A stretch of 64,000 nt of DNA, taken from Glaciimonas immobilis (lineage in GTDB: Bacteria > Pseudomonadota > Gammaproteobacteria > Burkholderiales > Burkholderiaceae_D). The notes beneath the pieces are model-generated. The model had not been told where the DNA came from. It saw only the letters and a list, made by a program, of their open reading frames with translations, and ran no database searches. The stretch covers positions 62,001 to 126,000 of the forward strand of contig NZ_JAAOZT010000004.1 of NCBI RefSeq assembly GCF_011947285.1, read 5' to 3'. The position numbers and the translations under genes were made by a program. Shown one piece after another: positions 1,430 through 3,382 of this stretch (within the stretch, counting starts at the first letter, position 1; every line of letters begins with the position of its first letter).

Positions 1430-2494
1430 TTAAGGCGCCCGCTTAAACAAGCGCCGCTGCTTAACAGCCTCAGCCAATCCGTCCAGCACAGCAATGCTCT
1501 GCTCCCAACTAATACACCCGTCAGTAACCGATTGACCATAAGTCAATTCCTTACCCGGCACCAGATCCTGACGACCTGCCACCAGATGTGATTCAATCAT
1601 CACCCCCACGATACGATCATCACCGGCAGCAACCTGACTGGCGATATCGGCGCAAACGGGAATTTGATTTTCCGGCTTCTTGGAACTATTCGCATGCGAA
1701 GCATCAATCATCAAGCGTTGTGCCAGACCGTTGCTTGCGATGTCCTTGCACGCCGCATCAACGCTCACTGCATCATAATTAGGCGCTTTGCCGCCGCGCA
1801 GAATGATGTGGCAATCTTCGTTTCCGTTGGTCGACACGATCGCCGAGTGACCGCCTTTGGTAACCGACAGAAAATGATGTGGCTGCGATGCGGCCTTCAT
1901 GGCATCGACCGCAATTTTGACATTGCCATCGGTGCCATTCTTAAATCCGACCGGGCAGGACAAACCGGAAGCCAGCTCGCGATGCACTTGCGACTCGGTA
2001 GTCCGTGCACCAATTGCGCCCCAGCTAATCAGGTCAGCCACATATTGTGGACTGATCACGTCCAGAAACTCGGTACCGGCTGGCAAACCTAGCTCGTTGA
2101 TGTTTAATAACAATTCGCGCGCCATGCGCAAACCGTCGTTGATGCGGAAACTGTTGTCCATGTACGGGTCATTAATCAGACCTTTCCAGCCAACGGTGGT
2201 GCGCGGCTTCTCAAAATATACACGCATCACAATTTCAAGCTCGCCCTTAAGGCGGTCACGCGCAACAACCAGCAGACGCGCATATTCCATCGCTGCCTTG
2301 GTGTCATGGATCGAACAAGGTCCAATCACGACCATCAGGCGGTCGTCTTGGCCATGCAAAATGCGATGCAATGCAATGCGCGAGTCGGCGGCAGTGGTAG
2401 CACCTTTTTCAGTGCAGCCAAATTCACGGATTAAATGGGATGGTGGTGTTAATTCTTTCATTTCTCGTATGCGCAAGTCGTCGGTGCGTGGCAT
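1430..2494 (-). CDS. aroG: 3-deoxy-7-phosphoheptulonate (DAHP) synthase, class I AroG type
   Basis: Condenses phosphoenolpyruvate and erythrose 4-phosphate to DAHP, the first step of the shikimate pathway; cytoplasmic. At 354 residues it is full length for class I alpha enzymes. By position the metal ligands are C60 (GPCS), H267 (SHAN), E301 (IESH) and D325 (TDGC), one less than the E. coli AroG numbering. The substrate-binding KPRTT and RTTESQVHRELASG segments are also present, including the serine that in AroG lines the Phe pocket; Phe feedback is therefore likely but not shown. A GGAGAG ribosome site precedes the ATG. The 5' leader carries a Phe/Tyr-rich peptide and a terminator (see 2527-2720), so transcription attenuation by aromatic amino acids is likely. 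It lies downstream of tldD and elaA on the same strand, but with its own promoter candidate. Confidence 0.96.
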   Translation of the reverse strand: MPRTDDLRIREMKELTPPSHLIREFGCTEKGATTAADSRIALHRILHGQDDRLMVVIGPCSIHDTKAAMEYARLLVVARDRLKGELEIVMRVYFEKPRTTVGWKGLINDPYMDNSFRINDGLRMARELLLNINELGLPAGTEFLDVISPQYVADLISWGAIGARTTESQVHRELASGLSCPVGFKNGTDGNVKIAVDAMKAASQPHHFLSVTKGGHSAIVSTNGNEDCHIILRGGKAPNYDAVSVDAACKDIASNGLAQRLMIDASHANSSKKPENQIPVCADIASQVAAGDDRIVGVMIESHLVAGRQDLVPGKELTYGQSVTDGCISWEQSIAVLDGLAEAVKQRRLFKRAP

Positions 2495-2526
2495 TTTTCT
2501 CTCCGGGCTAAAAAGTGACTGGGAAT

Positions 2527-2556
2527 AAAAAAACCGCCATTAGCGGCGGTTTTTTT
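2527..2556 (-). terminator. attenuator: perfect terminator hairpin in the aroG leader
   Basis: Arms A7-CCGCC (2527-2538) and GGCGG-T7 (2545-2556) are perfect 12-bp complements with a 6-nt loop. It sits 32 nt upstream of the aroG ATG and 21 nt downstream of the leader-peptide stop codon. The leader block GGCGGT at 2600-2605 (minus strand) can pair with the ACCGCC arm at 2545-2550, so an antiterminator is possible. The A and T runs on both sides would let it stop transcripts from either direction. Confidence 0.8.
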
Positions 2557-2577
2557 GAATTTCGGTTTGTTCCGTAA

Positions 2578-2658
2578 TTACGAACGCTTACCGCTTTTCA
2601 CCGCCGTGGGGCTGGAATAGCTAAAGTAAAAATAAAAATAAGCGTTTGAAAAAGTCAT
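2578..2658 (-). CDS. aroG leader peptide, Phe/Tyr-rich, predicted attenuation peptide
   Basis: A 26-codon frame on the minus strand, reading MTFSNA, then YFYFYFSY, then SSPTAVKSGKRS and a TAA stop. Eight of the residues are Phe or Tyr, seven of them within eight consecutive codons. It lies between a promoter candidate (2692-2720) and the terminator hairpin at 2527-2556, just ahead of aroG, whose product starts Phe and Tyr synthesis. This is the arrangement of ribosome-mediated attenuation as known for pheA and trp operons. The ribosome site is weak (GAAGAC directly before ATG), which is the main reservation. The peptide itself presumably has no function beyond being translated. Calling it regulatory is inference from content, position and structure. 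Confidence 0.75.
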   Translation of the reverse strand: MTFSNAYFYFYFSYSSPTAVKSGKRS

Positions 2659-2691
2659 GTCTTCGGGTAATTAGTTGGAGCTCTGGGCAAG

Positions 2692-2720
2692 ATAATGCAA
2701 CAGTTTTGAAAATTAAGCAA
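2692..2720 (-). promoter_or_regulatory. candidate promoter of the aroG leader transcript
   Basis: Minus-strand TTGCTT (2715-2720), 17-nt spacer, CATTAT (2692-2697). It would start RNA some 25 nt ahead of the leader-peptide ATG. The match to the sigma-70 consensus is modest (3 of 6 and 4 of 6). Confidence 0.35.
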
Positions 2721-2860: not shown

Positions 2861-3382
2861 CTATGCGATGCTTTTAGCAATCATGTGAACATGCGCTATG
2901 CCCTCCTCATCATAGACATCCCCCACCGGCACAAACCCAAAGCGTCTATAGAATTGCTGCAGATGCGCCTGCGCGCCGATCTGGACGTCTAAACCTGGAT
3001 AAAGCCGCGCTACTTGCGCCATTGCCTGCGACATTAAAGCATGCCCGACATTGACGCCGCGCAGGTTGGAGGCGGTCACCACTCTACCGATGGATGGCTG
3101 CGGATACGACACACCGGGCGGCACGATGCGCGCATATGCGCTCAAATCACCATTAGCTAAATAACCAAGCCCATGCCAGCATTGTCGATCGATACCATCC
3201 GCGTCCAGAAAGACACACGCCTGTTCGACCACAAAAACCCGCTGCCGCAAAGCCAACAAGTCATACACCTGCGTCGCACTTAATCCCGCAAACGGCACCC
3301 ACATCCAGTCGAGTCCAAGTGGATCGCCAGACTGAGCAGTCCCGGCGCCAACCGATGGCTTCACTGTAATCATCGCCAACAC
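2861..3382 (-). CDS. GNAT family N-acetyltransferase, ElaA-like
   Basis: A 173-residue protein of the ElaA branch of the GNAT fold. Visible features are the N-terminal LDWMWVPFAGL, the LLALRQRVFVVEQ helix-strand pair, the central beta strand DLSAYARIVP, the acetyl-CoA loop region IGRVVTASNLRGVNVGHALM, and the C-terminal FYRRFGFVPVGDVYDEEGIAH typical of ElaA. It transfers an acetyl group from acetyl-CoA; its substrate is unknown. It begins 6 nt after the tldD stop on the same strand, so the two are probably co-transcribed. The ATG three codons later (MITVKP) is an equally possible start. Confidence 0.85.
   Translation of the reverse strand: MLAMITVKPSVGAGTAQSGDPLGLDWMWVPFAGLSATQVYDLLALRQRVFVVEQACVFLDADGIDRQCWHGLGYLANGDLSAYARIVPPGVSYPQPSIGRVVTASNLRGVNVGHALMSQAMAQVARLYPGLDVQIGAQAHLQQFYRRFGFVPVGDVYDEEGIAHVHMIAKSIA

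Follow-up and report, generated by a model that had tools for sequence, protein, structure and literature searches.

The aroG gene in the window (the whole 64,000-nucleotide stretch of DNA that was analysed) is very probably controlled by a ribosome-mediated transcription attenuator, as judged from sequence comparison and fold modelling. Attenuation had been proposed in an earlier note on this DNA, and the proposal is supported by the conservation in relatives of a leader open reading frame (ORF), its reading frame, a GGCGGT block and a terminator. The parts named in that note, namely a promoter candidate, a 26-codon frame containing YFYFYFSY, GGCGGT and the terminator, were confirmed where it had placed them on the minus strand, and the observation is thus real. 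The parts are as follows.

2715..2720, minus strand: proposed -35 element of the leader promoter, TTGCTT; the commonest equivalent in the family is TTGCCA
2692..2697, minus strand: proposed -10 element of the leader promoter, CATTAT, 17 nt after the -35 element and 33 nt before the leader ATG
2578..2658, minus strand: leader ORF of 26 codons, MTFSNAYFYFYFSYSSPTAVKSGKRS, with no clear Shine-Dalgarno (SD) sequence; read from the sequence and from comparison
2617..2640, minus strand: aromatic codon run YFYFYFSY, the proposed sensor; read from the sequence and from comparison
2583..2646, minus strand: 1:2 (protector) hairpin, in which some of the aromatic codons pair with GGCGGT and the bases 3' of it; from the MFE fold
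2600..2605, minus strand: region 2, GGCGGT, the 5' arm of the antiterminator, within the leader ORF (GGCGG lies within the leader in 141 of 143 cases)
2545..2550, minus strand: region 3, ACCGCC, common to antiterminator and terminator; from the sequence and from pairing in aligned leaders
2527..2556, minus strand: intrinsic terminator (regions 3:4), AAAAAAACCGCC / GCTAAT / GGCGGTTTTTTT, with a 12-bp stem and a T-run; from a terminator scan and the fold
2499..2504, minus strand: SD sequence of aroG, GGAGAG
1430..2494, minus strand: aroG, class I DAHP synthase, the gene under the proposed control (NCBIfam NF006723, 587.7 bits, cut-off 568)

About 33 nt separate the terminator hairpin from the aroG ATG, which begins at 2494, and the leader stop codon lies 20 nt after GGCGG. 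The terminator had been described as a perfect 12-bp stem with seven T; the stem stands, with 5 G-C and 7 A-T pairs, while the T-run is not separate from it but doubles as the tail, the seven T having been counted twice. The hairpin is symmetric and scores on the plus strand as well.

In a search of the genome with its own sequence, the AroG protein matched only its own locus. No type II DAHP synthase was found in the genome, and the single other PF00793 match is presumably kdsA, by its look and its neighbour; aroG is the only DAHP synthase gene found there. The closest named AroG proteins are those of Herbaspirillum and Collimonas (90-92%), in keeping with the Oxalobacteraceae named in the earlier note. 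On the far side of the gene, between aroG and an ORF at 72-668, lies a tandem array of the hexanucleotide GTTGCA (21.7 copies, 817-946) that yields Leu-Gln repeat ORFs on both strands.

The leader is distinctive in the genome and widespread in the family. A degenerate pattern of its codons occurs once in the 4.9-Mb genome, at this locus, and the reversed control does not occur. Of the 119 family leaders, 89 had an upstream ORF with at least 7 aromatic residues in 10, and 111 had one with at least 6, compared with 2 and 26, respectively, of 1190 Markov sequences; because the 119 had been preselected for having a leader, this comparison gauges the strength of the signal, and prevalence comes from other counts. 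Among the first 110 loci there were 100 distinct upstream regions, and 99 of these, all except L071, had an ORF with 4 or more aromatics in 10. A terminator together with a short ORF was found in 120 of 121 distinct upstream regions from the window's own family, and in 119 of these the ORF had 4 or more aromatics in 10. With duplicates set aside, 203 of 215 oriented upstream regions were distinct (L112, also leaderless, duplicates L071). Out of 149 rows, six that had at most 3 aromatics in 10 were left out, one of which, L107, carries a leader, the scan having chosen another hairpin.

A covariance model built from 25 leaders matched 135 of 145 genomes sampled evenly across the family, and in the 15 rows for which coordinates were compared with aroG the match lay directly before the gene each time. 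Eight of the ten genomes without a match, all but G009 and G064, were examined individually: aroG itself gave no match in two (G007, G044), it lies close behind tldD in G013 (the locus L112), and just 48 nt of contig precede it in G035 (L214). Three others (G008, G050 and G074; L205, L212 and L208) do carry a leader according to the ORF-and-terminator scan, and the last (G043, L202) has a hairpin with a weak leader. One strong second match (G121:C55, E 2.6e-15) was a contig ending inside the leader, and the match in G034 precedes an aroG truncated by the contig end.

Beyond the family, but within the same order, which we take to be Burkholderiales, a leader was found in 24 of 84 loci and in 8 of 23 families. 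One of the 8 positive families had it in 1 of 5 sampled loci, and the sampled members of the other 15 of the 23 had none. The 84 loci come from 141 matching genomes and are biased to the more similar ones; G209 is represented by its second-best copy, and of three pieces with no aroG start (L182, L189, L218) the first two were scored as misses among the 84. At class level, where 78 genomes had a match and 29 new loci were scanned, 2 of the 29 had a leader, one in the same order (L246) and one in another (L228). A third flagged locus, L238, was dropped, as it has no CCGCC terminator. The earlier note had called for an alignment of relatives in which the aromatic codons, GGCGGT and the terminator should be kept while the rest drifts, and this expectation was borne out across the window's family and for some other members of the order.

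The pattern of conservation within the leader points to a coding sequence on which RNA pairing is superimposed. With codon positions numbered from the in-frame GCG of GGCGGT in 105 family leaders, codons -10 to -7 are nearly always aromatic, and both Phe/Tyr exchanges and synonymous changes occur among them; aromatic codons also predominate, though less strongly, at -13 to -11. Position -10, for example, is occupied by Y in 63 leaders, F in 33, H in 7 and W in 2, and by the codons TAT (49), TTT (25), TAC (14) and TTC (8). Codons -9 to -6 are nearly invariant in nucleotides (TTT 93, TAC 85, TTT 100 and AGC 94 of the 105), as is TCC at codon -4 (92/105), and in the RNAalifold consensus these fixed codons fall partly inside the 1:2 hairpin. 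Conservation at the nucleotide level extends to non-aromatic bases, namely AGC, TCC and GGCGGTGG. Aromatic residues over the whole leader amount to 583 F, 309 Y and 19 W in the family and to 111 F, 48 Y and 15 W in the other families.

The reading frame is maintained from the start codon to region 2: in 124 of 141 leaders ATG and GGCGG stand in one and the same frame, although the distance between them varies from 38 to 71 nt, and the distance from GGCGG to CCGCC follows no 3-nt rule. Translation therefore appears to matter as far as GGCGG, and the leader ORF is probably translated; the occurrence of GGCGG in other frames in the remaining 17 of 141 leaders indicates that this motif itself is conserved as RNA. 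The last aromatic codon lies 11 nt from GGCGG in 81 of 141 leaders and 17 nt from it in 30. Four leaders from Janthinobacterium, Duganella and Massilia (L041, L045, L076, L084) have a variant form, FFT-xxYFYFSNSN, with the stop right after AVE, and the leader of L041 contains an ACCGCC, resembling a second region 3, to which GGCGGT is paired in the MFE structure.

Mutually exclusive pairings were found in most leaders. In every one of the 25 aligned leaders, regions 2 and 3 can form five G-C pairs, and in 24 a sixth pair as well; GGCGG is paired upstream, as 1:2, in the MFE structure of 119 of 128 segments. On sequence and fold model alike, the antiterminator is predicted to exclude the terminator, and its 5' arm to lie just beyond a ribosome stalled in the aromatic run. 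Statistical signals for these pairings are modest. Covariation in 2:3 is nearly nil because the bases are invariant, and in 1:2 it is weak, with a small excess at most (e.g., 61 paired vs 52.7 when dealt out, in a fixed register). One flanking position, a base before region 2 and a base after region 3, shows compensation, being a Watson-Crick pair in 51 of 141 leaders vs 35.3 in shuffles, none of 5000 of which reached as high, kinship being uncorrected; the tool's own count was 8 paired of 25 leaders. Complementarity of regions 2 and 3, taken locus by locus, exceeded shuffles at p<=0.05 in 61 of 143 only, and fold z-scores of the 1:2 segment fell below -1.5 in 42/105 and 9/23. RNAalifold returned the terminator only from 109 aligned leaders, no structure from ungapped 40-nt blocks, and both hairpins, the 1:2 hairpin in a smaller version, from the alignment of 25 relatives.

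The effect of a ribosome was followed in a fold model in which the transcript was cut before region 4 for calculating the probability of 2:3. With a ribosome on the aromatic codons, P(2:3) exceeded 0.5 in 135 of 141 leaders, compared with 27 without a ribosome and 45 with a ribosome at the stop codon. For the whole transcript at equilibrium, the terminator wins in 137-140 of 141 across the three states, including 137 with a stalled ribosome, which means that the switch would have to be kinetic. In the 85 leaders with no more than 14 nt between GGCGG and the stop codon, a ribosome halted there prevents 2:3 (above 0.5 in 2 of 85, at a 15-nt rearward footprint). The window leader behaves otherwise, with P(2:3) at 0.81 when ribosome-free and 0.99 with a ribosome at the stop, and thus has no clean off-state in the model, there being 20 nt between GGCGG and its stop codon; 2:3 is shut off only when the rearward footprint is widened to 24 nt (P 0.0005). 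The same applies to most of the 43 leaders whose stop is at a distance of 15-22 nt: no clean off-state is reached in 37 when the footprint is 15 nt and in 35 when it is 18 nt. The model implies that in this group the off-state must come from a ribosome passing over region 2, a wider footprint, or kinetic competition by region 4, and this is the main difficulty for the attenuator reading. The case is less clear-cut than the earlier note implies in the window's group, where a ribosome at the stop does not clearly mask GGCGG.

The promoter candidate ahead of the leader is also backed by comparison. The window sequence TTGCTT-17 nt-CATTAT is its copy of a pattern that 107 of the 119 family leaders share, compared with 243 of 2380 shuffles; the site was found by family comparison and is absent from the list given by a generic promoter scan of the window. 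In L002 and L005 the comparative scan puts another site first. An SD-like 4-mer precedes the aroG ATG in 112 of 119 family loci and 21 of 24 others (133/143 overall) and the leader ATG in 6/119 and 0/24, being absent before 137 of 143 leaders. The weak ribosome site of the leader, which the earlier note regarded as its main doubt, thus finds an answer in the lack of such a site before nearly all leaders.

How translation might start without an SD appears to differ among families. Outside the window's family, 13 of 24 leaders, vs 52 of 1200 shuffled, have a TANNNT hexamer resembling a -10 element whose end lies 5-9 nt ahead of the leader start, 6 nt being commonest. A TTG-plus-minus-10 pattern occurs in 11 of 24 vs 11 of 480 shuffled, and in eight of these 11 leaders the gap between its end and the start is 6 or 9 nt. 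Transcription starting about 7 nt after such a -10 element would make these leaders leaderless. In the window's own family the leaderless pattern is not enriched (11/119 vs 804/5950 shuffled), and the -10 element ends mostly 25 or 33-34 nt before the ATG (47/107), a spacing that gives the leader a short, SD-less UTR.

The attenuator would operate as follows. RNA polymerase would start about 26 nt before the leader ATG in the window, and roughly 0-3 nt before it in many leaders of other families, and a ribosome would begin the leader without an SD. When charged Phe or Tyr tRNA is scarce, the ribosome would stall in the aromatic run and open the 1:2 hairpin, GGCGGT (region 2) would pair with ACCGCC (region 3), no terminator would form and aroG would be transcribed. 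When charged tRNA is plentiful, the ribosome would cover region 2, the 3:4 terminator would form and transcription would stop about 33 nt before aroG. By analogy with the Corynebacterium system described below, Phe is the better guess for the main signal. A broader version of this model is speculative and rather unlikely: the attenuator would be ancestral to the order, with an SD-less sensor peptide that, in several families though not in the window's, is leaderless; ribosomes would load at the very 5' end of the RNA while it is being made; entry into the pathway would be set by the pooled charging of Phe, Tyr and Trp tRNAs; and the terminated leader would be a leaderless mini-mRNA, possibly with a role in trans.

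An attenuator whose terminated leader RNA or peptide additionally acts in trans, like rnTrpL/peTrpL of Sinorhizobium meliloti, would have a precedent in what PMC7298713 proposes for that system, and the anatomy is alike, i.e., a terminated, SD-less, peptide-coding RNA that in places is apparently leaderless. Conservation of the peptide outside the aromatic run is, however, largely explained by RNA constraints, and such a function is considered improbable.

Far less credence is given to a leader that senses a metabolite or binds a regulatory protein, with the ORF incidental. Several non-aromatic bases are indeed conserved as nucleotides (the AGC, TCC and GGCGGTGG noted above), but they lie mostly within the 1:2 and 2:3 pairings, and a riboswitch would not be expected to retain codon identity and frame. 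Moreover, no Rfam family reached its gathering score in the whole window or in 20 loci, and nothing appeared at E<=0.1 in 8 loci. The best-scoring family at the window leader was Phe_leader (RF01859), at 29.3 bits (E 0.0091 in a 701-base search) against a gathering cut-off of 55, a sub-threshold result that leans towards the attenuator.

Least credible of all is that the hairpin merely terminates a unit formed by tldD and a GNAT gene, both of which do lie upstream on the same strand as aroG, and that a T-rich stretch has given rise to the ORF by chance, since the aromatic ORF is far above chance, its frame is kept to GGCGG, GGCGG lies inside nearly every leader and the promoter pattern stands shortly before the leader ATG in most of the family. 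The 12 leaderless loci tested (L071, L112, L122, L125, L132, L138, L139, L142, L147, L153, L155, L171), which could be cited in favor of a tldD-unit terminator, all have a tldD-like stop 36-190 nt before aroG, as if aroG were part of the tldD unit where the attenuator is missing. In L113 a tldD-like stop lies 260 nt before aroG with a leader in between. The GNAT acetyltransferase gene of the window (2861-3382), between tldD and the aroG leader, scores under the NCBIfam cut-off.

The attenuator reading would provide a regulatory mechanism for the committed step of aromatic amino acid synthesis in a large bacterial group. It yields an alignment of leaders and a testable RNA switch, as well as natural comparisons between apparently leaderless and short-UTR leader peptides, and between genomes with the leader and those with a leaderless aroG close behind tldD. 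An aroG leader in this group appears to be undescribed, in agreement with the earlier note: no description was found in the open-licence literature, among the matches listed.

The closest known system is aroR of Corynebacterium glutamicum, an attenuator of the aroF operon with a Phe-Tyr-Phe leader peptide at which stalling raises transcription; limitation of Phe acted there and availability of Tyr did not (Neshat et al. 2014, as described in the review PMC11802643). It likewise places an aromatic leader peptide ahead of a DAHP synthase operon, but in an actinobacterium and with a shorter aromatic run, the two leaders being compared by description only. The same review names pheA (pheL) and pheST of Escherichia coli as Phe-sensing attenuators (PMC11802643). 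These, and Phe_leader, concern another gene, whereas here Tyr and sometimes Trp codons are mixed in and SD-like sites are missing before nearly all leaders. For aroF of E. coli and Shewanella, a DAHP synthase gene with suggested attenuation although a different gene in a different group, PMC2659441 gives "Attenuator sensing tyr-tRNA", citing Camakaris et al. 1980, and lists aroF with the genes for which no RNA structure had been proposed. Leaderless attenuator peptides have a precedent in trpL of S. meliloti, where, according to PMC7298713, the 5' end of the RNA is the leader ATG and trpE(G) is attenuated during growth. That system differs in sensing Trp, in its gene, trpE(G), and in belonging to an alphaproteobacterium, and its leaderless start is experimental, whereas here a leaderless start is suggested mainly for families other than the window's. 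Attenuation by a leader peptide is already known for a DAHP synthase operon (aroR), as is a leader peptide that is itself leaderless (trpL); what distinguishes the aroG leader is its spread at the level of an order and its independence of an SD.
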